In this document: positions 12,611 through 38,337 of the stretch, one piece after another
How the letters are laid out: every line of letters begins with the position of its first letter
How positions within the stretch are numbered: position 1 is the first letter of the stretch
Virus record (IMG/VR): IMGVR_UViG_3300046787_000399
Coordinates: 1 to 41,414 of that record
Source of the DNA: a virus
Length of the DNA: 41,414 bases
Direction: 5' to 3' (one strand)
Made by a program: the position numbers and the translations under genes
The notes under the pieces: model-generated
The model's input: only the letters and a program-made list of their open reading frames with translations
What the model was told of the DNA's origin: nothing
Database searches by the model: none

Positions 12611-13777
12611 TTATCTCAACAACACTTGCTTGACCTGCGCAAGGTTGATATTTTGCAAGGGTAATTCTCTACCATCCACACGACCGTTGTTCCATATGCG
12701 AATGCACTTTTCAAAGTTGTTGACTAGTTCGTTTACAATTTGTTGTCTAAACCCAGTCCACAAGTGATTGAAATTGTGCTCTAGTACTGGCTGCATTTCC
12801 CGGTGCATTTCTCGCAGCTCACTATCGCTCATGGCACATAGCTTGCTGGTTTGGTCTACTATGGCTTGTAGTCTTAGATCTGGATCTTGAATGGTGTCAT
12901 AACTTTCGTCAATCCACCGATCAAAGGTTTGGAATCCGTAGCTTTTTAAATAAGCAAGATTGCCCGGTGCCGCTGCCAACATGAAAGGGCGTTGAGCCAC
13001 AATAGGCTTGAATATTTTTTCTGTCAGATGCAACTTGTCATGATAGAAAACTGTTTCAGTAACAATATGCCACAACCCTGACTTCCAAAGTGCAAACTCT
13101 TGATCTCCAAAATCTGCGCTTAGACTACCAGTAGTGTTGTCTCTATCAAGTATCATGGGCTTGCCCAGGTGCTGTGCAATCAGTTCACGAGCCTGAGCAC
13201 TGAGTCGAGTGTCAGGGTTGCTTATTTCTTGTTGCCAAGTACCGTGCTCGGCGTGCCCAAGATGCAAGCTCACGTGCCCGCGATCCAACAAGTCTTGTTC
13301 TGCCAATCGTGCTACTAGATTAAGACGATAACTACGATCGTTCACATGCAGGCGGTTTAACGAAACATAAGGACGAGTCCAGTCAACGTCTTGATCAAAA
13401 TACTGAGCATCACGGTACCAATCAAGAGCAGCGAATCCATGAAAAAAGTAATACCAATCTAGGTAATGATTTTCTTTGAGTAGGCGTTTTTTCAATTCTG
13501 AGTGTTCACTATTGGCCAGCAGTTTGAGTTGACTAAAAAAGTATGTGAACGGGCAGTCATAAACACTTTGCGCATTGATGGGCTCTTGGTCGAAAAAATA
13601 ACAAACTTTATTTCTAATAACAGCCTGGCCGCTTTGCGGACTAAGGGGCAAGTATCTTCCAAAGAAAAGGTCATCAAGACTTACTGACCCAAATTTGGTG
13701 TACATTATATCATGTACGCACAGTGGCGCCAAAAGGTGGCGGTGCAAGATGTAGTAAAAATTCTCAATGGAAAACAT
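12611..13777 (-). CDS. Glycosyltransferase-like protein, paralogue 1
   Basis: 388 residues. The C-terminal half has LWHIVTETVFYHDK, LHLTEKIFKPI, then a Gly-rich stretch and LKSYGFQTFDRWIDESYD. This order resembles the donor-binding part of GT10 (fucosyltransferase-like) enzymes, where a TEK motif is invariant. CYFFDQEPI and YYFFHGFAALDWYRD in the N-terminal half recur in the gene at 30286, and the C-terminal block recurs in both 30286 and 31400, so the three are paralogues. It is a single inverted gene between plus-strand operons, which suggests insertion. Donor and acceptor unknown; virion or host glycan modification is inferred. Confidence 0.65.
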   Translation of the reverse strand: MFSIENFYYILHRHLLAPLCVHDIMYTKFGSVSLDDLFFGRYLPLSPQSGQAVIRNKVCYFFDQEPINAQSVYDCPFTYFFSQLKLLANSEHSELKKRLLKENHYLDWYYFFHGFAALDWYRDAQYFDQDVDWTRPYVSLNRLHVNDRSYRLNLVARLAEQDLLDRGHVSLHLGHAEHGTWQQEISNPDTRLSAQARELIAQHLGKPMILDRDNTTGSLSADFGDQEFALWKSGLWHIVTETVFYHDKLHLTEKIFKPIVAQRPFMLAAAPGNLAYLKSYGFQTFDRWIDESYDTIQDPDLRLQAIVDQTSKLCAMSDSELREMHREMQPVLEHNFNHLWTGFRQQIVNELVNNFEKCIRIWNNGRVDGRELPLQNINLAQVKQVLLR

Positions 13778-24807: not shown

Positions 24808-25069
24808 GTATGTAGATGCAGAGGCTGTGCCACCACCACTAGTAAAAAAACAAGTGTGGGATGCAGACAATCAAGTGTTTGTGCCTGTATCAATGTATCG
24901 GTTTCAAGGTGTGCTCAATAGCATAAAGTTGGACTGGTTAAAAGAAACATACGGACCGCCGGGTGTGTACAAACATGGAAGATTTTGGGATTACAGCAAA
25001 GGCGGAAACTTTACTGTGATGGATGAAAAAGTTTATATGTGGTATCAAATGAAATGGGGAAATAAATGA
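24788..25069 (+). CDS. Unknown protein, 93 residues
   Basis: ATG inside the end of the preceding gene; TAA-less ATGA overlap with the epimerase start at 25066. Begins MWAQNIEYVDAEAVPPPLVK; contains LDWLKETYGPPGVYKHGRFW. No known motif. Probably translated with the epimerase gene. Confidence 0.65.
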   Translation: MWAQNIEYVDAEAVPPPLVKKQVWDADNQVFVPVSMYRFQGVLNSIKLDWLKETYGPPGVYKHGRFWDYSKGGNFTVMDEKVYMWYQMKWGNK

Positions 25070-26037
25070 GCAAGTTTTTAGTAACAGGTGGGCATGGCCT
25101 AATTGGGCACAATGTGGTGCAACGATTGCAAGCACGTGGGGAAACAGTTAGTGTAGTAGACACTCACACCACATACGGAATTATCCCGCAAGCGGAGATT
25201 GATTACTTGATCAGTGAGCGACTCAACAAGATCACTGACCACACATATTACAATCAGTGTATCACAGACGGGTATGAGATTGATCATATTGTAGAAAAAG
25301 AGCAGCCCAAGGTGATCATTCATTGTGCCAGCTTTCCCAGACAGAAAGTGGTCAATGCCAACCCTGCACATGGTGCTGACGTCATGATGCGTGGTTTGAT
25401 CAACTTGTTGGAGAGTGCCAAAAAGCACGGGGTAGAACGTTTTGTGTACATCAGTAGCAGCATGGTGTACGGGGACTTTGAAGATCAAGTGTTGGAAGAT
25501 GATCCTTGTGCGCCACAAGGACAATACGGCATCATGAAGCTGGCAGGAGAATGGCTTGTTAAAGATTATGCAAGAAGAACAGGTATGGAATATGTTATCA
25601 TCCGTCCGTCGGCAGTATATGGGCCTTTGGACGTGGAAGATAGGGTTGTTGCAAAGTTTATGCTCCAAGCCATGCGTGGTGGTGTTCTCCGGGTCAACGG
25701 TGCGTCGGAGACGCTGGACTTTACATACGTCGATGATGCTGCAGATGGCATTGTTGCGGCTGCGACTAGGATCATGTGTCGCAACATGGTATTCAACATC
25801 ACCAAGAGTCATAGTGTTACGCTCCTCGAAGCGGCAGAAATGATTGTGAAGATTGTGGGCAAGGGCACTATTGAAACACGAGACAAGGATGCAGATTTCC
25901 CAAGCCGTGGCGCACTCAACATTGATCGTGCTCGAACTATTCTGGGCTTTGACCCCAAAGTTGATGTAGAACAAGGATTCCGTGAATACTATGACTGGCT
26001 TTCGAATTCCGTTTACTGGTCTCCCAAGACAGTATAA
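25066..26037 (+). CDS. NAD(P)-dependent sugar epimerase/dehydratase (extended SDR)
   Basis: 323 residues. Rossmann TGGHGLIG at residues 7-14, catalytic Ser region YISSSMVYGD (128-137) and YGIMK (Tyr-154, Lys-158), then IIRPSAVYGP and FTYVDDAADGI: the NDP-sugar epimerase/dehydratase family (GalE, RmlB, WbpM-like). It acts on a nucleotide-bound sugar; the exact reaction cannot be read off. The aminotransferase gene overlaps its end, so the pair probably makes an amino or deoxy-amino sugar. Confidence 0.92.
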   Translation: MSKFLVTGGHGLIGHNVVQRLQARGETVSVVDTHTTYGIIPQAEIDYLISERLNKITDHTYYNQCITDGYEIDHIVEKEQPKVIIHCASFPRQKVVNANPAHGADVMMRGLINLLESAKKHGVERFVYISSSMVYGDFEDQVLEDDPCAPQGQYGIMKLAGEWLVKDYARRTGMEYVIIRPSAVYGPLDVEDRVVAKFMLQAMRGGVLRVNGASETLDFTYVDDAADGIVAAATRIMCRNMVFNITKSHSVTLLEAAEMIVKIVGKGTIETRDKDADFPSRGALNIDRARTILGFDPKVDVEQGFREYYDWLSNSVYWSPKTV

Positions 26038-27094
26038 CAACCTACGCCAAGAGATACTGGACTCAACTGACCAGGTGTTGCAATCTGGTCAGCTCATGAA
26101 CGGGCCCTGGACTCGTAAGTTTGAAAACTGGCTGGCAGTTAGGAACGGGGGCAAAAATGCAGTAACCTGCCACTCGGGTACGCAGGCTCTGGAAATCATT
26201 GCCGAATACTGGCGTGGACTAGAACTAACCAACCGGCAACCGCGAGTGTTGATTCCTAGCTTGACGTTTGTGGCAACGGCCAATGCGTTTTTGCGAGCCG
26301 GCTGGGACGTACACTTTATAGATGTAGATATCAACGGTTTGTTTGACCCTGACAAAATTCCGCAGGATCTTGATTATCAGGCCGTGGTCCTGGTAGGATT
26401 GTATGGTGCTGCTATTTCTCATGCCCACTCAGTCAAAGCCTGGACACATTGGCTACACAACAATGTCACTGTGATCGAAGATGCTGCACAACACTGGTTG
26501 GGTAACAACAGTCTTCGAGTTGGCGAGGGTAGTGCTATCAGCTTTGACCCTATGAAGAACTTGGCTTGCTATGGCAATGGCGGTGCAGTGGTCACAGACA
26601 ATCAAGATCTAGCAGACTTTGCACGGGCCTGGGGCAATCACAACAAAGGTGACTACAAGGCAGAACGTGGTGGCAGTAACAGTCGCATGAGCGAGCTAGA
26701 CTGTGCTCACATGATGGTCAAGACACAGTACATTGATCAGTGGCAAGGGAGGCGTCGAAAGATTGCTGCTTACATGTGTGAGCGTTTTGCAAATACCAGC
26801 ATACGTTGTTTGATCAATGAACAAAACGAACACAACCATGCGTTTCATAAGTTTGTGATTGATGTTGATCACCGCAATCGACTACGAGAAAAGCTGTGGG
26901 ATGCCAGCATCGAAACCAATATACATTATGCTCAGCCCTTGCATTATGATTCTGTGCTGCGCCAATTTCCCGGGCCCAATATGTTGAGTGTAGCGTCTGC
27001 ACTGTGTCAGCGTGTGCTGAGCCTGCCTATCTACCCCGAGCTGTCTGACTCAGAGGTAGAATATGTTACTGATCAGGTACTAAAGAACGTTTGA
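25991..27094 (+). CDS. DegT/DnrJ/EryC1-type sugar aminotransferase
   Basis: 367 residues from the ATG at 25991; a GTG at 25982 is also in frame. PLP-dependent amino transfer to a keto sugar. Seen: GPWTRKFENWLA, CHSGTQALEI, PSLTFVATANAFLRAG, EDAAQHWLG (Asp-164) and the PLP-binding Lys-189 in SFDPMKNLACYGNGGAVVT; QQR-type C-terminus with IYPELSDSEVEYV. Overlaps the epimerase by 47 bases. Tail-to-tail overlap of 29 bases with the next, minus-strand gene. Confidence 0.93.
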   Translation: MTGFRIPFTGLPRQYNNLRQEILDSTDQVLQSGQLMNGPWTRKFENWLAVRNGGKNAVTCHSGTQALEIIAEYWRGLELTNRQPRVLIPSLTFVATANAFLRAGWDVHFIDVDINGLFDPDKIPQDLDYQAVVLVGLYGAAISHAHSVKAWTHWLHNNVTVIEDAAQHWLGNNSLRVGEGSAISFDPMKNLACYGNGGAVVTDNQDLADFARAWGNHNKGDYKAERGGSNSRMSELDCAHMMVKTQYIDQWQGRRRKIAAYMCERFANTSIRCLINEQNEHNHAFHKFVIDVDHRNRLREKLWDASIETNIHYAQPLHYDSVLRQFPGPNMLSVASALCQRVLSLPIYPELSDSEVEYVTDQVLKNV

Positions 27095-30000
27095 CAAACG
27101 CATAACTTGCCAGCCAATCCCACTCGTAGCTCTTGCGGAGTTCAGTGGGATCACCTTTGACTTGCTCGTAATACTCCACAGCATCTTCTGCACCTCGAAT
27201 GCTCCACTCTCCGTTCCAGCCGTCGCCTTTGGTGAGCCATTGACTTAGTCTATATTCGCTTTCAACATCAGGCTTGGATGCTTCAAGTTTGATTACTTCC
27301 CGGAATGCTGTTCTCCATGCTGACCAAGCAGTATCAGTGTACCATGCTGTGCCTGAGTCAATAGGAACAACTTCGTGCGCACTGTCCAGAGTAAAGTCCA
27401 GCCCTTGGCCTGTATTGGCCAACACCAATTCTCGATTGTAGGCAATCATGGCCTGATGGCCATAGATCAGACCATTGCAGGGATTGTAGGCATGAAAGAT
27501 ATAGTGCTTGGGTTGCTGCATACGGTCAGGTTGCCACGACCAGTCAAATTTTTTGTTGACTTGTAACTTGGCAAATACTGCAAAGAACCAAGGTGTAGTG
27601 GACTTTTGAGCAGCCGCATGATATGCTGCCACACGACCTTTTACCCCATCAACACGATACACATGATTGTTTCGATTGTAGGTACTGTCTTTTAGACGCT
27701 GATAATTTTGATCTGCGTTTTTCTCTCCGTTTGAGATGAACACAATGTCCAAAGGATTATCGCCGTGTCGTTTTCGTTGTGTTTTGTCAATGTAAGGGTA
27801 GTCATATAGTTGTGTTTTGACACTGCCTTTGGCTGTTTTTGGCACAACAACTGCACTGGCACCAGCACTCAATGGCACAACAACCTTGGTCTCTTGGCGC
27901 CACAGTGGGATAGCAGGAATAGTAATTGGCATGCCATTTGTGGTAAACAATGCAACTGGCCCGGCCCAGTCTGTATTTTTTACTGCATCAACATGCGAAT
28001 CAGCGCTGTGTTCGATCACTGGCATGCTGCGTCGAGGTACAGATATACGTGGCACATAGTTCACACTATACCATTCCAGCAAGGCCTTTTTCTCTGCACG
28101 TTCAGCAAAGGTAGGCACATGCATGTAGAATGTGTCCCCAAACTTTTGTTCGTTAGATGCAAACACATGCAGCATTGTGGTTTGCCAACGTTCAGGGTGC
28201 CACGAGAAGTCAAATCCTGAGTAGTCACAGATACTACTGCATACCCATACCCACTCGTGCTCGCCTACTAGACTTTTGGCCAGGCGGATCAAGGTGTCTC
28301 TGTAGTTGTCAAAGTAACGTATGCGTTTGAGTGTGTTGGGAATGTTGCCTGCGTTTCCATCCAAATGATCAATTTCAATGATAGGAACTGTGGCTGTTTT
28401 TATTTCCACTTGCACATGCTCAAGGTACTTGATTTCTGTGGCACCAGGCACAGTATACACAGGACCACCTGTCTTTTGATGCTGTGTAGCAAACTGATAG
28501 ATGTAAGGAGGTTCGCCTGGATCAGGCACCCAGGTGTAATCCACTTGGTCTTCTTTGACGTTGGGCGGAACAGTCCATAGTGTAGTGTTGGGCAACAACG
28601 TTGCGTGTGGGTAGTCCATGTATTTGACGGCACTAGACTCATCTGCGTTGTCAGCACAATACCTCAAGGTAGGCATCTTTTCTGCTGGCCAGTGTTGATT
28701 GCCAAACACATATACCATGGGAGGTTCGCCTGGGTCAGGTTGCCATGAGTAATCAAACTCGTAACGATGCTCGCTTAAATTGTCCCAGTTCTTGGTAGAC
28801 TCCAGTAACTGAGCACGTGGATAATCCATGTACTTGCGTTCTGTTGCACCCGGTACTGTGTATGTTAGTGTAGGCATCACTTCTGCAGAGTGCCATTGAT
28901 TGCCAAACACGTATATGTAGGCAGGATCTCCTGGGTCAGGAATCCAACTATAATCCCACTCGCAGTCAATTAGTGTGTGCCAGCGATTATCATGTCGTTC
29001 TGGTAACTGAGCTCGAGGATGATCCATGTACTTGAGTTCACTAGCACCATCTACACGATACTCTAGTGTGGGCATGATCTCTGCGGTATGCCATTGATTG
29101 CCAAACACGTATATGTAAGGAGGTTCTGTAGGATCTGGCCTCCAAGAGTAATCAAAGTCTGCTACTGGCGCTAGGCTAGTGAACTTGGCAGGCGCTGCCT
29201 GCACCTTTGCAATTATTTCATCAATATACTTGGTTTCGCTAGCACCATCAACATGATACACAATCGTGGGTTCAATAACACCTGAATTCCATTGATTACC
29301 AAACACATAGTCCATTGGAGGATCAAACGGGTTGGGTTCCCAAGAATAATCAAATTCTTCTATGTTGATATTCACCCGCCACTGATTGCCGTAGTTGGGC
29401 AAACGAGTGGTACGTTGATCCATGTACTTGATTTCTGTAGCACCCGGGACCACATAACGAACACTGACTTTGTGTTCAGGTGGGTTCCATTGATTGCCCC
29501 ACACGTATATGTAAGGCGGATCTTTGGGGTTAGGCACCCAGGTCCAGTCCCACGCTGTTTCGTCTATGGATTCAAGTATTTCCCAGTTATCTCTTGTGGG
29601 CAACAAAGGCACTACAGTATCTACAAACTTGTCTTCTGTGGCGCCAGGCACATGATAAGTTGCTGTGGGCATGATCTCAGCCGGATACCATTGATTGCCA
29701 AACACATAGTTATAAGGTGGCTCGCACGGATCTGGCACCCAGCTAAAGTCTATGCTGCCAACATCTGCGTTGGCTGTTATTGACCAGTTTTGCTGATTGG
29801 GCATTAACTGTGCTGGCATCTGCATAAACTTGATATCAGTTGCTCCTGGCACCTGGTACTCTACTGTGGGCATTTGTTCAGCAGGCCAATGTTGATTGCC
29901 CCATACGTATATGTAAGGAGGTTCTAGTGGGTGCGGTGCCCATGTCCAGTCCCATTGATCTTGTGCAATAGGGTGCAACACCTTCCAGTTGTCTTGGCTA

Positions 30001-30287
30001 GACTTGTTTGGTACTACTGTGGTGTGAAAATTGATTTGGTCAGTTGGAGTTTTAGGCACCAGATATGTGCCAGAATATTCGTGATGCTGATTGGGCCAAA
30101 CATGCAATTGATGCGCTTGCCACGGTGCTGGCTCCCAAAGAAAGTCAAAGCCACTGTAGTCCGCTAAGTAGTTTACAACCCAACAAAACCTAGTGCGACT
30201 CAATTGCTGTGCATGCTCAACACTGTTTGCACACTGCTCATGAGCAAACAAGCTTGGCTTTTTTCCAATATAAAATACGTCAAACAT
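27066..30287 (-). CDS. Giant tandem-repeat protein with glycosyltransferase-like ends
   Basis: 1073 residues. About eight consecutive units of 65-70 residues occupy roughly residues 110-620. Each begins with FDYSWxPDPxEPPYxYVFGNQW and continues MPTxxYxVPGATExKYMD. Diverged versions stand at the N-terminus (DYSGFDFLWEPAPW) and near residue 700 (DYSGFDFSWHPERW). A C-terminal segment (LDIVFISNGEKNADQNYQRL, later TPWFFAVFAKLQV, FDWSWQPD) resembles the start and metal-site region of a GT-A glycosyltransferase, but the DxD is not evident. Its start codon overlaps that of the divergent gene. Glycan binding or transfer is inferred; the family is not one I can name. Confidence 0.7.
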   Translation of the reverse strand: MFDVFYIGKKPSLFAHEQCANSVEHAQQLSRTRFCWVVNYLADYSGFDFLWEPAPWQAHQLHVWPNQHHEYSGTYLVPKTPTDQINFHTTVVPNKSSQDNWKVLHPIAQDQWDWTWAPHPLEPPYIYVWGNQHWPAEQMPTVEYQVPGATDIKFMQMPAQLMPNQQNWSITANADVGSIDFSWVPDPCEPPYNYVFGNQWYPAEIMPTATYHVPGATEDKFVDTVVPLLPTRDNWEILESIDETAWDWTWVPNPKDPPYIYVWGNQWNPPEHKVSVRYVVPGATEIKYMDQRTTRLPNYGNQWRVNINIEEFDYSWEPNPFDPPMDYVFGNQWNSGVIEPTIVYHVDGASETKYIDEIIAKVQAAPAKFTSLAPVADFDYSWRPDPTEPPYIYVFGNQWHTAEIMPTLEYRVDGASELKYMDHPRAQLPERHDNRWHTLIDCEWDYSWIPDPGDPAYIYVFGNQWHSAEVMPTLTYTVPGATERKYMDYPRAQLLESTKNWDNLSEHRYEFDYSWQPDPGEPPMVYVFGNQHWPAEKMPTLRYCADNADESSAVKYMDYPHATLLPNTTLWTVPPNVKEDQVDYTWVPDPGEPPYIYQFATQHQKTGGPVYTVPGATEIKYLEHVQVEIKTATVPIIEIDHLDGNAGNIPNTLKRIRYFDNYRDTLIRLAKSLVGEHEWVWVCSSICDYSGFDFSWHPERWQTTMLHVFASNEQKFGDTFYMHVPTFAERAEKKALLEWYSVNYVPRISVPRRSMPVIEHSADSHVDAVKNTDWAGPVALFTTNGMPITIPAIPLWRQETKVVVPLSAGASAVVVPKTAKGSVKTQLYDYPYIDKTQRKRHGDNPLDIVFISNGEKNADQNYQRLKDSTYNRNNHVYRVDGVKGRVAAYHAAAQKSTTPWFFAVFAKLQVNKKFDWSWQPDRMQQPKHYIFHAYNPCNGLIYGHQAMIAYNRELVLANTGQGLDFTLDSAHEVVPIDSGTAWYTDTAWSAWRTAFREVIKLEASKPDVESEYRLSQWLTKGDGWNGEWSIRGAEDAVEYYEQVKGDPTELRKSYEWDWLASYAFVKRSLVPDQ
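28440..29960 (-). repeat. Tandem protein-coding repeats of about 200 bases
   Basis: Eight units. The DNA coding for the 'GNQW/GNQH' core appears at about 28480 (diverged), 28690, 28905, 29097, 29292, 29490, 29693 and 29893, so the period is 192-215 bases (64-71 codons). Units share words such as TTGATTGCCAAACACGTATATG-like blocks but have drifted at the DNA level, so the duplications are old. Indels between units are whole codons. Confidence 0.85.
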
Positions 30288-31422
30288 GCTTAGAATAGAT
30301 GAAATTTACAACAATACCTTTTGGCCTTGGTTAAGGGCCAACCGCCCTGGATTCAGAGCATTTTTTTGCGAACCATTTGGTAGAAGTGACGCAGACAGCG
30401 TCATGAACTACGGCAGAGATGATATACACGAACACAATTATATATTCTTTTTTGACCAAGAGCCAATACATTTGAACATACACATGCCTACTTTTTTAGC
30501 AGTTCAAGGCCACAATGCGGATCTTATCAAGAATGAGCCAGTAACCTATTCTTTTCAACGGTGTGGGTGGCCAACACCAGGATATTTGCTTACCAGTGAG
30601 CAAAATAGTGAATATGTTGATTTAGTGTGTACAAGATTCAAGTGGAAGCCTTTGTATTATTTCTTTCACGGGTGGGCTGCACTAGACTGGTATCGTGGAT
30701 ACGACAAGACGTTTTTGATTACCCCTCTGGCTCAACGTAAAATTACAAAAACGTTTATAGCCCCAAATCGTATTGTGGCCGGCGAACGGTTGCACAGGTT
30801 AGAAATGCTGTACCACATATTCAAAAACAACATGACCAACAATCATATTAGTTGTCCAGCAGTGTGTCCAGCAGAGAACATCAGCATCGAAGCCGCGGCT
30901 GAGCCATTGTTGCAAAAGTATCCAGACATTCAACAAGTGTTTGCTGCACAGACCTTGCCCATAAACTTTGAGGGAGAAACAGACCACCCCATGCATTCAT
31001 GCTGGCTCAGTTTGTTTGACCAAGCAGGCGAAAGTCTGTTATACTTGGTAACAGAAACTGTGGCTTCTGGTCGCAGACATCATCTTACTGAAAAAACATT
31101 CAAGCCCATTGCCTTGGGCATGCCCTTTGTACTTGTGGGCACAAAAGGCAGTTTGAAGTATTTGCGTAGTTATGGATTCCGAACATTTGACGGTATCTGG
31201 GACGAGAGTTATGATGACGCTGAAGATCATGACAGAATTGAGCGTATTGCTAGTCTATTGAATAGTCTAGACAAATTATCCGACCTTGCTAAACAAACGT
31301 TGTTTGAGCGATGTCGTGAAGTTATAGAACACAATTGGAATCACTTCTATGGGGGAGGATTTGAAGCTGTTCTATGGCAAGAACTAAATGAGATGTTAAA
31401 TGGAATTGAATCTAATAGCTGA
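30286..31422 (+). CDS. Glycosyltransferase-like protein, paralogue 2
   Basis: 378 residues. FFFDQEPIH and YYFFHGWAALDWYRG (N-terminal half) and LVTETVASGRRHHLTEKTFKPI ... LRSYGFRTFDGIWDESYDD (C-terminal half) match paralogue 1 at 12611. The TEK-containing block resembles the donor site of GT10-like enzymes. The ATG at 30286 overlaps the divergent gene's ATG (CATG). The next paralogue starts 23 bases before its end. Probably attaches a sugar to a phage or host surface structure; substrate unknown. Confidence 0.68.
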   Translation: MLRIDEIYNNTFWPWLRANRPGFRAFFCEPFGRSDADSVMNYGRDDIHEHNYIFFFDQEPIHLNIHMPTFLAVQGHNADLIKNEPVTYSFQRCGWPTPGYLLTSEQNSEYVDLVCTRFKWKPLYYFFHGWAALDWYRGYDKTFLITPLAQRKITKTFIAPNRIVAGERLHRLEMLYHIFKNNMTNNHISCPAVCPAENISIEAAAEPLLQKYPDIQQVFAAQTLPINFEGETDHPMHSCWLSLFDQAGESLLYLVTETVASGRRHHLTEKTFKPIALGMPFVLVGTKGSLKYLRSYGFRTFDGIWDESYDDAEDHDRIERIASLLNSLDKLSDLAKQTLFERCREVIEHNWNHFYGGGFEAVLWQELNEMLNGIESNS

Positions 31423-32572
31423 TCAAGTGATCAAAGGGCGTATATACCCTTCATTGGCGCAGCATCAAGCACGACCTTACACACCCGCCTGGCGCGAGTT
31501 TGGCTCCTACTTTCCTTATACTATACCGTTAAGGCTGCAGGAATATTGTGAACAGCATGGTGTAAAAATCAATATTCACCACATTCACAATAAACTGCCT
31601 GCTAACACTTTTTATCCTGTGGGCCTAGGGTTCTTTAACTTTGGTATTGATTATTTTACCTTGCTGCCCGCCGCAGTGTTTACTGCTGTGTACGAAGGTA
31701 AAGTTCGAGTACTGTTTTACTATCACGAAGGAGACAATCCAGCTAGGATCAAGCAGCGTCTTGACCAACTGGCTTTTAATGTTCGGCTTCCGCAAAACTG
31801 TTATGTATTTGTAAGCGCAAATTCAGCTGCTGACTCTGTTCCGGGGTTTGTGTATTTTAACGACTTTGAGTTATGGTATTACCAACGCAACTGTGATCAG
31901 CCTGCATTACCAGTTCATGCACAGCCACGTGAGCGAGAATTCACAGCACTGAATCGACTGCACAAGTCGTGGCGTGCTACTGCCATGGCAGATCTATTAC
32001 GGCACAAAGTACTGAATAACAGTTACTGGAGCTATTGCGAAACTGGTAGCGTGGGTACTGACAATCCTATTGAGATCAACAATATTGATGGGTTAAGTGA
32101 AGCTACTGACAAGTTCTTGCAAAATGCCCCGTATATTAGTGATGAATCAGATCAAGATCAACGCAACAATCACTCAGTAACCGATTTCAAATATCATGTC
32201 AACAGCTACTGTAACATAGTGTTGGAAACGCACTTTGATGCTGACCAAAGCGGCGGTGTATTTCTAACAGAAAAAACATTCAAGCCTATCAAACACGGTC
32301 AATTGTTTTTTATTGCTGGACCTGCAGGTAGTTTGCAAGCCTTGCGTGACTTGGGCTATAAAACGTTTGACTCAGTACTGGATAACACCTACGATCGTAT
32401 TGTGGACAACACTCAACGTTGGTTACGATTGTGCGAAGCTATACAACAATCTCAACACAGGTTGGCTGACCGATTTGAAGCTGCTCGTGCTGATATTGAA
32501 CATAACCAACAGTTATTTTTGGCCAACAAAGCCAACCGTTTAAATACTTTATTCACTAAACTAAACACATGA
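31400..32572 (+). CDS. Glycosyltransferase-like protein, paralogue 3
   Basis: 390 residues. Shares the C-terminal block NIVLETHFD, VFLTEKTFKPIKHGQ, GSLQALRDLGYKTFDSVLDNTYD with the other two paralogues, while its N-terminal half is different (FYYHEGDNPARIKQRL; FVYFNDFELW). Could use another acceptor. Its stop overlaps the amidinotransferase start (ATGA), so the two are co-translated. GT assignment by motif resemblance only. Confidence 0.65.
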   Translation: MELNLIADQVIKGRIYPSLAQHQARPYTPAWREFGSYFPYTIPLRLQEYCEQHGVKINIHHIHNKLPANTFYPVGLGFFNFGIDYFTLLPAAVFTAVYEGKVRVLFYYHEGDNPARIKQRLDQLAFNVRLPQNCYVFVSANSAADSVPGFVYFNDFELWYYQRNCDQPALPVHAQPREREFTALNRLHKSWRATAMADLLRHKVLNNSYWSYCETGSVGTDNPIEINNIDGLSEATDKFLQNAPYISDESDQDQRNNHSVTDFKYHVNSYCNIVLETHFDADQSGGVFLTEKTFKPIKHGQLFFIAGPAGSLQALRDLGYKTFDSVLDNTYDRIVDNTQRWLRLCEAIQQSQHRLADRFEAARADIEHNQQLFLANKANRLNTLFTKLNT

Positions 32573-33588
32573 TTAATTCTTACACCAGCTGGCAACCTCT
32601 TGAAGAGGTCATTGTGGGTCGCGCCTACAGTCCTGATTATTTTGACTTTATTGATAATCCACAGGTACGTAATCAACTGCAACAAATTCTTGCTGAAACT
32701 GAAGAAGACCTAGATAACTTGAGCAAGACTATTGAAAAGTACGGTGCTCGAGTTCGACGTCCTAACTTGCCCAGCAAGGACAGTTTTGTATGGCATCAGA
32801 CTGAAGGTGGTGGTGCTCCGTTGCCCCCACTAACCCCACGCGACTGGCAAATCACACTAGGCGACAAGCTGTTGCGTGTACTCAACATGGAAGAACTAGA
32901 TGAAATTTGTGCAGACTTCAAGGATCAAGTTGTTAACCCTCATCAAGGTCGTTGGGACGAAAACTGTATCCTTAATGGTGCCAGTGCCAGTTGCATTGTG
33001 CGTGTGGGCCGTGATGTGTTTTTTGATAACTCAGACTTTTTACGACCTGACCAAACACGATGGATTGTGGACAATGTACTGGGTCCAGAATATCGAATCC
33101 ACGAAGCTATCACCGACGGACATGGCGATGCAGTATTTGCAATTCTCAAGCCTGGTGTACTACTAAGCAGCAAACACGATGTTAACTTGGATCTAGCCAA
33201 AGACTTCCCAGGGTGGGATGTGTGCAAGATCTGGGATAGCAGTATCTGGGCAGCAATGGAAGTAGGCAAGTTCAAGTATGAACAATCACCAGGTGCTTGG
33301 TATGTACAAGGACAAACACCCACAGCTGAGTTTACTGACTTTGTGGACACATATCTAAACAAGTGGACAGGCTTTGTGGCCGAAACTGTGTTTGATGTTA
33401 ACTGTCTTGTGTTGGACGAAGAAAACGTTATCTTTAGTGCCTACAACAAACAGGTGTTTGACTACTGCAAAAAGCACAGAATCAATCCTATCATTAGTGA
33501 ACTGCGTCACAGCTATTTCTGGGATGGCGGAGTATCCTGCTGTACTCAAGACCTGCGTCGTCGTGGTGGTCTTGAAACATATTTGTAA
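32569..33588 (+). CDS. Amidinotransferase (arginine:glycine / inosamine-phosphate type)
   Basis: 339 residues. Transfers an amidino group from arginine to an amine through a Cys-amidino intermediate. Seen: WQPLEEVIVGRAY at the N-terminus, DGHGDAVF with the catalytic His-185, and GGVSCCTQDLRRRGG with Cys-324/325 near the C-terminus, as in StrB1 and AGAT. An amine made by the DegT aminotransferase could be the acceptor, giving a guanidino sugar as in streptomycin-type pathways; this is inference. Stop overlaps the next radical SAM start (TAATG). Confidence 0.9.
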   Translation: MINSYTSWQPLEEVIVGRAYSPDYFDFIDNPQVRNQLQQILAETEEDLDNLSKTIEKYGARVRRPNLPSKDSFVWHQTEGGGAPLPPLTPRDWQITLGDKLLRVLNMEELDEICADFKDQVVNPHQGRWDENCILNGASASCIVRVGRDVFFDNSDFLRPDQTRWIVDNVLGPEYRIHEAITDGHGDAVFAILKPGVLLSSKHDVNLDLAKDFPGWDVCKIWDSSIWAAMEVGKFKYEQSPGAWYVQGQTPTAEFTDFVDTYLNKWTGFVAETVFDVNCLVLDEENVIFSAYNKQVFDYCKKHRINPIISELRHSYFWDGGVSCCTQDLRRRGGLETYL

Positions 33589-34589
33589 TGTACCGGCTCA
33601 GTGACATTGTTGCGTTGGATATTGAATTGTCCAGCAAGTGCAATGCAGAGTGCCCGTTGTGTCCACGTAACTTTCACGGGTATCCTGAAAATCGTGGATA
33701 CACTGAACACAACATGACCTTGGCTGAGTTTCAACACATAGCCAAGCCTGAGTTTCTGAGTCAATTGAAGTCGGTTTGGATCAATGGCAACTTTGGCGAC
33801 ATGTTGATGAATCCCGACACTGTGAGCATTGTTAGATATATCACACAACACAGTACAGCACAGATTGCTGCATCAACCAATGGCGGAGCACGAGATAAAC
33901 AATTCTGGCAAGATTTAGCAACACTAGGAGTAATAGTTCATTTTTGCATTGACGGACTTGAGGACACTCACAGTATCTATCGTAAAAACACAGTGTACAG
34001 TGTAGTGATGGCCAATGCACAAAAATTCATTGCAGCTGGTGGTCATGCTGTGTGGAAAATGACACGGTTTGATCACAATGCTCATCAAATTGATCAAGCC
34101 CGACAACTGGCTCAGGACTTGGGTTTTCGGTCTCATGATCTAATAGATCACGGTCGTAGTAATAGTCCAGTATACAACAAAGAAAAAAAACTAGTAAATG
34201 TGATAGGAAATGTTCCGCACACTGAGTTTGAAGTATTATGGCACAGCAGGTTCAACAACACTGTGCAACACAAAAAACAACAACTTGGTCCTGTTTCGTG
34301 CAAGGCACAAAACAAAAAAGAACTTTACATCAGCAGTGTTGGCGATGTTTATCCTTGTTGTTTTTTAGGTTACAATCCTGAAACGTTTGAACGTGGTATG
34401 AACACGTACTACAACAAAATCAATCAAGAACTTGCACCAATGATTGCTAACAACAATGCACTAAAAAATACTCTGGAACAATGCATTGAATGGTTCAATC
34501 AAATACCCCCAACTTGGGACACTGATCCCTTGCTGGCGTGCAATGACTTCTGCGGCAGCAGTAGTCTTTATTCAAAGGCGCCCACATGA
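33588..34589 (+). CDS. Radical SAM/SPASM-type protein
   Basis: 333 residues. ELSSKCNAECPLCPRN gives the CxxxCxxC cluster at Cys-18, -22, -25, very close to the N-terminus. Three further Cys groups (VSCKAQ; VYPCCFLG; LLACNDFCG) in the last 100 residues fit a SPASM-type auxiliary iron-sulphur domain, as in peptide- or sugar-modifying enzymes. Starts on the stop of the amidinotransferase; the next radical SAM gene overlaps its end (ATGA). Confidence 0.88.
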   Translation: MYRLSDIVALDIELSSKCNAECPLCPRNFHGYPENRGYTEHNMTLAEFQHIAKPEFLSQLKSVWINGNFGDMLMNPDTVSIVRYITQHSTAQIAASTNGGARDKQFWQDLATLGVIVHFCIDGLEDTHSIYRKNTVYSVVMANAQKFIAAGGHAVWKMTRFDHNAHQIDQARQLAQDLGFRSHDLIDHGRSNSPVYNKEKKLVNVIGNVPHTEFEVLWHSRFNNTVQHKKQQLGPVSCKAQNKKELYISSVGDVYPCCFLGYNPETFERGMNTYYNKINQELAPMIANNNALKNTLEQCIEWFNQIPPTWDTDPLLACNDFCGSSSLYSKAPT

Positions 34590-35605
34590 TTATCCCTATC
34601 GCCAATCAACATTCATTTAACACAATTCCTCGTAATGCACAGCTAGGCCACAAGATAGACTACCGTTGTAATGCACCTAGCAAGCAACTGGTAATAGACT
34701 GGAAGGGAGATTGCTTTGTATGCGGTTGTGAAGCATGGTTACCTATAAGTCCCGGAAAGATAACAGACTTTGAAAAGCTAGCAGATGTTTGGTTGCATCC
34801 TACCTCTACAGCATTACAAAAAGATATTGATTCAGGTGCATTTACTCATTGTGCTGTGGACCGTTGCGGTGTAATGAATAATGATTTATTTGATACTCGT
34901 TATGTAGTAAGCATCAACATAGACGAAAGCTGTAATCTAGCCTGCCCCAGCTGTAGAGATCACAGCATAATGATTTCATCCGGGGCCGATTACGAACTCA
35001 AACTAGCCCAGGTACAGCACACACGCAAGCTACTGGAACAGTTTGATCAACCTTGTCACATTGTAATGAGTGGCAATGGCGATCCGTTAGCGTCAGCTAT
35101 TATGCGTCCGTTGATTCGAGAATTTCAACCTGGGCCCAATCAAACAATTCGATTGTTTACCAATGGCTTGCTAATGGAAAAACAATTAAGTGACTCGCCT
35201 ATACTGGAACACATTACTCAATACTTTATCAGCATTGATGCAGGCTCTGCGGCAGTGTATCATGACGTTCGTAGGCCCGGAAACTGGAACGTGTTGATGC
35301 GCAACTTGGAATGGCTCAAGCTGGTACAGCAACGCACTGGCGCAGAAGTGCTGTTGAAGTTTGTTTTGCAACAAGCCAACTACCGAGACATACAGAACTT
35401 TTGTGAACTGTGTATAGACTTTGGATTCAATGGTGTTGTAAACAGACTAGAAGACTGGGGCACATGGACCAGCTTCACAGCGCAAGATGTTGTGGGTAAC
35501 ACTGCACACCCTGAACACAGCGCTGCAATAGAAAATCTGCGTACAGCACATGGCCTGTACGCAGATCAAATTCAATTCAACGCCAGCTTAGTTGAGCTCT
35601 GCTAA
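34586..35605 (+). CDS. Radical SAM protein with SPASM-like cluster at the N-terminus
   Basis: 339 residues. The radical SAM cluster CNLACPSC is at Cys-116, -120, -123, preceded by a Cys-rich segment: Cys-28, then GDCFVCGCEAW (43, 46, 48), KITDFEKLADVWLHP and FTHCAVDRCG (89, 94). That order (C...G-x-CxxC...IW-S/H...C...C) is what a SPASM/twitch domain shows at the C-terminus of ordinary enzymes; here it comes first. Coupled to the preceding radical SAM gene. Convergent 18-base overlap with the next, minus-strand radical SAM gene. Substrate unknown. Confidence 0.88.
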   Translation: MIIPIANQHSFNTIPRNAQLGHKIDYRCNAPSKQLVIDWKGDCFVCGCEAWLPISPGKITDFEKLADVWLHPTSTALQKDIDSGAFTHCAVDRCGVMNNDLFDTRYVVSINIDESCNLACPSCRDHSIMISSGADYELKLAQVQHTRKLLEQFDQPCHIVMSGNGDPLASAIMRPLIREFQPGPNQTIRLFTNGLLMEKQLSDSPILEHITQYFISIDAGSAAVYHDVRRPGNWNVLMRNLEWLKLVQQRTGAEVLLKFVLQQANYRDIQNFCELCIDFGFNGVVNRLEDWGTWTSFTAQDVVGNTAHPEHSAAIENLRTAHGLYADQIQFNASLVELC

Positions 35606-36853
35606 CCAAGGAAATAGATCCGGCCAGTGTGTACCGCGGCGACGATCTATTTCAGTCAAATAAACCTTTAGGTCATCTATGCGTGATTGATCACGTGGCC
35701 CTGCTTGTATCTGTCGCATGATACCTGCCATGTGTTCACGTGCATCTAGAGACCCTGGTTTGTCTGTGGGCATGGCTGCTAGCACACGTTCAAAGTCTGC
35801 ATCAAACACACCTGCACCAAAGATATCCGGCACCATTTCAGGCGGTGTCATTACTGACATAAAGCTGAAGCTGATAGGATTCCAAGGGTTACGGCGTGCG
35901 TTCCATCCATTAATACGTTCCACTAGATCAGGCAGTGTTTTAATTGTCAGCGCTGAGATAGCTGTATTCATGCACATAACAACCCAGTCTTTATCCAGTA
36001 GATATTCCCAGTTCTCTTGCCATTCAGCAAGATCCAAGCCCCAGCGTACATATTCTTCTTGTGGCCCCCATGCATCCAAGCTACCTGTAATTTGTAGACG
36101 CTTTAACGCACCAGCATTAACCATTGCGCCAAAGCGATCAATATATGCTTTGAACTTCTTGGTGGGCACTTTCAAGTTGGTAATGATATTGAATGTTAGC
36201 TCAGGATTAGGATGTGCTTCCCAGAAGTCCAAGCTGGTATCAAATTCCTTTTGAAAGAAAGGTTCCCCGCCTAGGATCTGATAGTAGCGTATGTGCCGGT
36301 AACGATCTTTATCTTCAAGATACTGCCAAAAGTCTGCTAGTTGTTTTTCGTAGTTGGGGTTACTAGGCTGATTAAAACCAAATTTAACACGCCCTTGTTC
36401 AAATATGCCAAAGCGTTTGTTTTCTTCTTCCCATTTAGTTGAGAAGTGTGATCCACAGTACAAGCAGGCCATGTTACACACATTGCTAAAGTACACTTCC
36501 AGGATAGTGGGTACTACTTCATTTGTTTCGGGATCAACGACTAATTCTTCTGGCGTACGATCTTTTTCGTGCCCGGCTTTTAGTTGATATTGTCTATCAC
36601 TTAGTCCACCTGCTGCTTCGATCTTTTCACAGTATTGACAGCCTTCTTGCGGCCATTCTCCACGGCGCATCATTTCTCTAGCACGTACTTTGTTGGGCAA
36701 GTTGTGAAAGCTTGCAAAGTTGTCTACAGGAATAGGTGCTTGATCTGTTCTATGGCAGCTTGAGCTTGTGCCCTGTCCCAAGTACACTGTTGACCACGCC
36801 CATTTTAACAAGCAGGCAGTGTCACTCTTTATTGGAAATACTCTATCAGTCAT
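35588..36853 (-). CDS. Radical SAM protein with N-terminal twitch domain
   Basis: 421 residues. N-terminal Cys-14, Cys-33 and GCQYC (72, 75) form the twitch-type domain; the radical SAM cluster CNMACLYC is at Cys-126, -130, -133, followed by ILGGEPFFQKEF. This layout is the known 'twitch domain-containing radical SAM protein' group. The start overlaps the carbamoyltransferase stop (ATGA), so both come from one minus-strand operon running from beyond the window edge. Substrate unknown. Confidence 0.9.
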   Translation of the reverse strand: MTDRVFPIKSDTACLLKWAWSTVYLGQGTSSSCHRTDQAPIPVDNFASFHNLPNKVRAREMMRRGEWPQEGCQYCEKIEAAGGLSDRQYQLKAGHEKDRTPEELVVDPETNEVVPTILEVYFSNVCNMACLYCGSHFSTKWEEENKRFGIFEQGRVKFGFNQPSNPNYEKQLADFWQYLEDKDRYRHIRYYQILGGEPFFQKEFDTSLDFWEAHPNPELTFNIITNLKVPTKKFKAYIDRFGAMVNAGALKRLQITGSLDAWGPQEEYVRWGLDLAEWQENWEYLLDKDWVVMCMNTAISALTIKTLPDLVERINGWNARRNPWNPISFSFMSVMTPPEMVPDIFGAGVFDADFERVLAAMPTDKPGSLDAREHMAGIMRQIQAGPRDQSRIDDLKVYLTEIDRRRGTHWPDLFPWLAELN

Positions 36854-38337
36854 GAGCAGACTTTCACTCCGTATAATTTTTCAAAACGATCTGCATCTGC
36901 ACGATCATTAACCATGGGCTCACCGCGAATGTTCAAGCTGGTATTCAGCAATATAGGACAGCCGGACAACACATACCATTTTTCTAACAGTTCTCTGATT
37001 CCCGATCCATCTTTAGGAACTGTCTGTACACGACTAGTCCCATCAGCATGAATGATAGCAGGAAATAACTCAGGATGCCTGCAACGAGCGATTGACTGCA
37101 TATACCTATTAGTACTGAACCCACGAGGCATATCAAAATACTGATCAGCAAGCTCTTCCAGAATGACTGGCGCAAACGGTCTAAATTGTTGGCGTTTTTT
37201 AATTGCATTAACACGTTCCTTTATATCAGGGCCACGGGGGTCAGCTAACAAACTTCTGTTACCTAGCGCTCGCGGACCAAACTCAGAGCGGCCGCTAGCG
37301 ACACCAACGATACGATTAGTAACAAGCTCGTCCAGAATGGCATGTACAGGGTAAGCACCGCCAATATCATGGCCCAGAAAAGCATTGTGCCAATTAATCC
37401 TACCACCATGAGCCAGCGCGGCGGCGCCCAGACTACTGCCAGCATCACCAGGACAAGGCATAATCCAAATATTGTCAAATAGTTCACCCAGCCTCCTATT
37501 GGCACTACAGTTTAGTGCAACACCTCCAGCATAAACTAGATTTTTGCTCCAACCATGTCCACGTGCTCTACTCATTACATTCATGATCAAGTCTTCCACA
37601 AGATCCTGAGCACCGGCTGCAATATCCACGTCACCAATATGACTAAGGTACTTTTGTTCCAGGCCAGTGTGCAAGTTGTTGCGGAAACGAATTTCCCATT
37701 CATTTGCCACCAAGTCCTGTTTCATTAAATCGCCAAAGCCACGTTCGCCATAAGCAGCCATGCCCATTAGAATGTATTCTTCGTCTAGTGGGCGTAGGCC
37801 AACGCGGCCAGTAACTGCAGAGTAGAAGAGTCCAATTGAATGCGGGTAACGCTGGCTCCAAAGTTTGCGATAATTCGCTTTACCAAGTTTATCATATTCT
37901 GCTGCCCATATTGTTACAGTGTCAAATTCGCCTACAGCATCAATTACTACCACAGTAGCGCGGTCAAACGGTGACGTTTGAAAGCCACCTGCTGCATGGC
38001 TAAGATGATGATTGTGCGTGCTGATGCGTGCTGGCAAGTTGACCATTCCGCTCAGCTGATCATTAATGATGCGTCTAGCCGTCAGCTTGTTCCATTCTAT
38101 GCCTTGCCCTGAATACAATTGTCTTAACTGTTTCAACCATGGGCGTTCATAGTAGGCAATCTGATTGATTTCACCACCATACTCTATAGCGTCTTGAATC
38201 AGTTCAAGACATAGGTTTTCGTCATTTTTTTTCTTGCTGTAACGCTCACTGTGGCTGGCAAACAAAATATCACCTTGCGGTGATATTACTGTGGCTGCTG
38301 CATCATGAAAGCCAGCTGATATTCCTAAGATACTCAT
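36850..38337 (-). CDS. Carbamoyltransferase, NodU/CmcH/TobZ family
   Basis: 495 residues. Carbamoyl transfer from carbamoyl phosphate by way of carbamoyl-AMP to a hydroxyl of a sugar or antibiotic. Seen: GISAGFHDAAATV at the N-terminus, the metal-binding HNHHLSHAAGG (108-118), VVIDAVGEFDTVT, AGGVALNCSANRRL, GSSLGAAA, and the YrdC-like C-terminal part with SEFGPRALGNRSLLADPR and PILLNTSLNIRGEPMV. Slightly shorter than TobZ (about 570). In a minus-strand operon with three radical SAM genes and two unknowns. Confidence 0.95.
   Translation of the reverse strand: MSILGISAGFHDAAATVISPQGDILFASHSERYSKKKNDENLCLELIQDAIEYGGEINQIAYYERPWLKQLRQLYSGQGIEWNKLTARRIINDQLSGMVNLPARISTHNHHLSHAAGGFQTSPFDRATVVVIDAVGEFDTVTIWAAEYDKLGKANYRKLWSQRYPHSIGLFYSAVTGRVGLRPLDEEYILMGMAAYGERGFGDLMKQDLVANEWEIRFRNNLHTGLEQKYLSHIGDVDIAAGAQDLVEDLIMNVMSRARGHGWSKNLVYAGGVALNCSANRRLGELFDNIWIMPCPGDAGSSLGAAALAHGGRINWHNAFLGHDIGGAYPVHAILDELVTNRIVGVASGRSEFGPRALGNRSLLADPRGPDIKERVNAIKKRQQFRPFAPVILEELADQYFDMPRGFSTNRYMQSIARCRHPELFPAIIHADGTSRVQTVPKDGSGIRELLEKWYVLSGCPILLNTSLNIRGEPMVNDRADADRFEKLYGVKVCS

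Follow-up and report, generated by a model that had tools for sequence, protein, structure and literature searches.

O-GlcNAc transferase is a GT-B enzyme in which a helical TPR array holds the protein acceptor. WbdD, a glycan-assembly protein read as a chain-length ruler, would set polymer length through an extended region of its chain. K4 chondroitin polymerase and CHSY3-CHPF carry two GT-A-like domains per chain, and B4GALNT1, WrtF, SpsA and the PBCV-1 capsid glycosyltransferase are glycosyltransferases of the GT-A fold. WbdD itself is described as a kinase-methyltransferase with a coiled coil (PMC3482155).

Among the protein-family and solved-structure collections that were searched, nothing quite matches the phage repeat protein analyzed here. 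The fold of its C-terminal domain is like that of the GT-A glycosyltransferases named above (Z 10-12 over about 135-140 residues), but the protein lacks a DxD, shares only 5-12% identity with them and combines three domains with a tandem array of one segment of theirs. It resembles the chondroitin polymerases in carrying more than one GT-A-like domain, but the domains appear to be placed differently (rmsd 12-13 in joint alignments) and an N-terminal domain and the array are added. A repeat array is joined to a glycosyltransferase in O-GlcNAc transferase as well; this is a likeness of working and not of kinship, the phage unit being all-beta and apparently derived from GT-A itself. WbdD too is alike in working only, its extension being a coiled coil with no sequence relation to the repeat protein.

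The protein is encoded in a 41-kb virus record of IMG/VR (IMGVR_UViG_3300046787_000399), analyzed over its full length of 41,414 nucleotides (the window). The carrier is a large uncultured virus of bacteria. Judged by the AAA ATPase gene of the window, the nearest named phages are PA5oct-like jumbo phages (51% identity).

Architecture of the repeat protein

The repeat gene lies on the minus strand (27066..30287, read as ORF 30287..27066), begins with ATG and encodes 1073 residues followed by a stop codon. An initial annotation that named no strand had placed a 1073-residue protein at these coordinates, which are correct, and had described eight tandem units of 64-71 residues. A profile built from the units recovers all eight at aa 112-645 with E-values of 7e-27 to 9e-36, and no match to this profile was found in shuffled sequences (10 shuffles for each of 113 relatives). 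The units are 64, 66, 66, 66, 67, 67, 67 and 71 residues in length and are pairwise 30-65% identical (mean 44%). In order along the protein, and all on the minus strand, these are unit 1 (aa 112-178; 29754..29954), unit 2 (aa 179-245; 29553..29753), unit 3 (aa 246-311; 29355..29552), unit 4 (aa 312-377; 29157..29354), unit 5 (aa 378-443; 28959..29156), unit 6 (aa 444-510; 28758..28958), unit 7 (aa 511-581; 28545..28757) and unit 8 (aa 582-645; 28353..28544). Unit typing assigns unit 8 to the terminal type, YQFATQHQKTGGPxY, which closes most arrays. The Trp, Pro, Asp and Asn-Gln positions called conserved in the initial annotation are kept across 28 four-unit stretches, 27 of which come from other phages. 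Divergent copies had also been proposed at both ends of the array. One end does carry a ninth copy, complete but divergent, at aa 47-109 inside the N-terminal domain (E 2e-4), whereas on the other side the profile finds only the first 20 or so residues of a unit, weakly, at aa 692-711 (0.16) and aa 914-932 (0.011).

Three GT-A-like domains accompany the array, also on the minus strand. The N-terminal domain begins with a GT-A-like half (aa 1-46; 30150..30287) of strand, helix and strand with L-A-D at the DxD place, as judged from the model, hhalign and residue counts, and continues into the divergent unit-like segment (aa 47-111; 29955..30149), delimited by the unit profile and hhalign. The middle domain (aa 634-735; 28083..28388), placed by hhalign and residue counts, overlaps the end of unit 8 and reads I-C-D at the DxD place. 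A stretch of predicted mixed alpha/beta structure (aa 736-841; 27765..28082) links it to the C-terminal GT-A domain (aa 842-985; 27333..27764), which was recognized by VIA, profile homology and residue counts and has F-A-K in place of DxD. The full model ends in a helical tail (aa 986-1073; 27069..27332).

The proposed resemblance of the flanks to GT-A glycosyltransferases is supported, with the correction that the C-terminal domain lacks the DxD. In VIA alignments with GT-A structures this domain, a Rossmann-like nucleotide-binding fold, reaches a Z of 12.2 (139 residues), its best matches in structural comparison being the four GT-A enzymes named at the outset. Between the N-terminal and middle domains hhalign detects homology (98.8%, 52 columns); the middle domain alone is without a GT-A match of its own. 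Only the last Asp of the site is kept in the N-terminal domain (LxD; D43 in 51 of the 52 sequences with a residue there) and in the middle domain (IxD; D688 in 51/54), where D718 is also present in 54/54, and the F-A-K lysine of the C-terminal domain, K907, is likewise found in 54/54. A full DxD is absent from all three domains and the repeat protein may therefore not be an enzyme; from these residues it would be at most partly active, perhaps a pseudo-enzyme.

A separate paralogue of the C-terminal domain, about 310 residues long, is encoded in all eight large relatives examined (contigs of 320-364 kb), for example on the minus strand at L178:15096-16022 and also in L173 and L175. In the six sequences read, it has D-G-D-N exactly opposite F-A-K. 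Its homology to the C-terminal domain is clear at the profile level (98.5%, 105 columns), and no Pfam or PHROG family matches it above threshold.

Structure and origin of the unit

Units 4 to 7 were modeled together with AlphaFold2 from an alignment of 28 sequences. Because this model reaches a pLDDT of 95.4 and a pTM of 0.81, the four units are predicted to form one ordered body. The initial annotation had spoken of a rod or array. The ordered array agrees with the prediction; the rod is drawn from the pTM, according to which the array apparently builds a rigid rod. The full-length model has a pLDDT of 88.3 and a pTM of 0.47. Compared with the PDB, the four-unit array gave a best Foldseek E-value of 4.9 and nothing at Z >= 2 with VIA, results with which a known fold is still compatible.

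The unit aligns with each of the GT-A-like domains of its own protein, namely the N-terminal domain (hhalign 96.4%, 65 columns), the middle domain (95.7%, 30 columns) and the C-terminal domain (72%, 18 columns). Every one of these alignments starts directly behind the strand that bears the DxD equivalent. In the model, the core strands of the unit, YIYVFGN and TLEY, correspond to the two strands behind the DxD site in all three domains. The simplest reading, supported by these comparisons, is that the tandem units arose by amplification of the segment that lies behind the DxD strand in the GT-A-like domain of this family, as the initial annotation had supposed of a glycosyltransferase element.

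Relatives and evolution of the array

Relatives of the repeat gene occur in hundreds of IMG/VR contigs, including jumbo phages of up to 364 kb. A first scan of IMG/VR found the homologous gene in 78 loci (40-73% identity, contigs up to 364 kb), and a profile scan extended this to at least 560 related stretches. Two full-length homologues from uncultured Caudovirales phages are present in BFVD, A0A6J5L5L5 (38% identity) and A0A6J5LK21 (30%), both uncharacterized and without assigned function. A tblastn search of 50,697 phage records, run with the whole protein and with two domains taken singly from a distant member, found no relative, and in 84,980 prokaryote genomes one pattern scan, which very distant relatives could escape, gave no confirmed one. 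The initial annotation knew of no named family, and none fits: the repeat protein has no match at curated threshold in Pfam, PHROGs or NCBIfam and no match to the PDB by sequence. Distant members and the family profile gave only sub-threshold or chance-level matches in Pfam, PHROGs and the PDB, none of them near threshold. Kinesin, the sole PDB match by sequence profile, was at chance level and was rejected. Literature searches on similar repeat glycosyltransferases yielded nothing on this repeat-protein family.

The number of strong units varies from 0 to 20 per protein among 113 distinct homologues. Copy number explains the length of the gene, protein length following 525 + 71 aa for each unit (r = 0.97; 108 homologues with an N-terminus). 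One array-free relative, L077, suggests that the array is not indispensable, although its contig breaks off within the gene, behind the expected array site. Unit number shifts quickly, such that a pair of proteins 96% identical outside the array differs by one unit. Purifying selection acts on the units (dN/dS 0.07-0.20 in sibling pairs), whose types follow a common order between phages, for example ...A-C-A-C-A-A-B ahead of the middle domain. The closest relative of a given unit is found in another phage and not in its own protein for 335 of the 377 units. For some pairs, similarity between the arrays greatly exceeds that across the remainder of the gene, as in L012 and L045 (dS 0.05 in the units and 0.65 in the rest), which suggests that arrays are exchanged between phages as blocks. 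In the distant relatives L152 and L140 the units number 20 and belong mostly to a single type, with more GT-A-like segments behind the array; their arrays are a recent expansion within one lineage. Copy number gave no clear signal against the presence or length of neighboring genes, a comparison confounded by relatedness.

The sugar locus and the role of the array

The repeat gene is surrounded by genes for sugar metabolism, counted here over 79 loci with the window included as one. On the plus strand of the window are an NDP-sugar dehydratase/epimerase of the SDR kind (25066..26037; 56/79 loci), the convergent neighbor of the repeat gene, a DegT/DnrJ aminosugar transaminase (25982..27094; 69/79), and an amidinotransferase related to arginine:glycine and inosamine-phosphate amidinotransferases (32569..33588; 61/79). 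The minus strand carries a carbamoyltransferase in which Pfam recognizes both the N-terminal and the C-terminal domain (36850..38337; 67/79), and a radical SAM protein is found in 62/79 loci. The divergent neighbor (30286..31422, plus strand) encodes an unnamed protein of 378 residues, glycosyltransferase-like by eye only; its ORF cluster, present in 76/79 loci, also includes the following ORF of 390 residues (31400..32572, plus strand). Neither ORF has a match in Pfam or NCBIfam, and a search of annotated phage records with the former found no relative. These two ORFs and a third at 12611-13777, also without a match in Pfam or NCBIfam, are related to one another, have the motif LTEK(I/T)FKPI in common and look by eye like one glycosyltransferase family. 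Within 25066-27094 and 30286-38337 the locus also holds radical SAM/SPASM proteins, and its amidinotransferase is related to StrB1 and SxtG. The locus may make an amidinated, carbamoylated sugar.

The surroundings of the gene extend toward the tail genes. In one relative the repeat gene is followed by radical SAM genes, the DGD glycosyltransferase, two ORFs that are GT8-like by eye and without a Pfam match, and then virion structural and baseplate genes. The order and orientation of repeat gene, DGD gene and baseplate gene are the same in 8/8 phages, with the repeat gene about 40 kb from the baseplate genes on the same strand. In one relative, five radical SAM ORFs are clustered at L178:7445-15095 between a carbamoyltransferase on one side and a glycosyltransferase on the other, and at L179:1779-16226 a 4815-residue ORF matching a virion structural PHROG adjoins a baseplate wedge subunit.

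On the computed evidence, the protein comprises three GT-A-like domains, with the part of the fold behind the DxD strand duplicated in tandem into an apparently rigid array between the first and the second. The best explanation of its function, given a probability of about 0.4, is inferred: the array would act as a glycosyltransferase-derived scaffold or ruler that serves an acceptor while the phage tail or surface, or a cell-surface glycan, is being decorated. On this account the array would keep an extended acceptor in place, either a glycan chain or a tail-fiber polypeptide, and a sugar would be added to it by the middle domain or else by the DGD paralogue together with other glycosyltransferases of the locus. 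This sugar would come from the neighboring transaminase and dehydratase/epimerase, with the amidino- and carbamoyltransferases modifying it, and how many units there are, and in which order, would determine reach or specificity. Counted in favor are the GT-A fold, the homology of unit and domains, the DGD paralogue in 8/8 relatives, sugar genes in 56-69 of 79 loci, the continuity from locus to baseplate genes, the ordered yet variable units, the selection on them, the likeness of arrays between phages and the one-body model. Counted against it are the degenerate DxD sites, the lack of a clear link between copy number and neighbors, array-free L077 and the middle domain without its own GT-A match.

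The degenerate DxD sites would also suit a virion component, a variable-length fiber or whisker with GT-A-like domains turned into lectins that bind host or virion glycans. The position on the strand of the baseplate genes and about 40 kb from them in 8/8 phages and a rigid array, variable in length and, like adhesion modules, exchanged en bloc between phages, point the same way; however, the protein matches no PHROG virion family and its immediate neighbors are sugar-modifying genes, and this reading is a serious but less probable rival of the scaffold. An active multi-domain glycosyltransferase or polymerase, with a catalytic middle domain and an array lending processivity in the manner of two-domain chondroitin and heparosan synthases, is also a serious rival, though a rather unlikely one. 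The best Foldseek match is K4CP (7e-5), a chondroitin polymerase with two GT-A domains, the middle and C-terminal domains jointly align with CHSY3-CHPF and mimivirus R699, and D688 is nearly and D718 fully invariant. Against this, the two-domain rmsd is 12-13 and therefore only single domains appear to fit, and none of the three domains has a full DxD.

The units might themselves be the acceptor, a repetitive protein modified by neighboring glycosyltransferases and radical SAM enzymes, several genes or ORFs of both kinds lying close by and Trp, Tyr and Asn being conserved in every unit. Conservation, however, extends over the whole unit and is common to the GT-A-like domains, which argues for a fold and not for modified sites and leaves this account quite improbable. 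Neutral tandem expansion without function would accord with the fast change in copy number, including the pair that differs by one unit, but is disfavored by the selection result (dN/dS 0.07-0.20), and unit order is common over large distances; its probability is very small.

Beyond the scaffold or ruler reading, the family may, though this is rather unlikely, represent a new class of repeat protein in which half a GT-A fold, freed from catalysis, has become a self-stacking module with ordered types that are lost, gained and exchanged in blocks, their number and order spelling the acceptor or the length of it that is bound. To our knowledge, few repeat proteins seem to have grown by amplification of part of an enzyme fold. 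With the ancestral domains preserved in the same chain and relatives carrying from 0 to 20 copies, how a repeat fold arose and grew can here be traced stepwise. The widespread and uncharacterized locus of large phages in which this has taken place seems to make an amidinated or carbamoylated sugar and to attach it near the tail genes.
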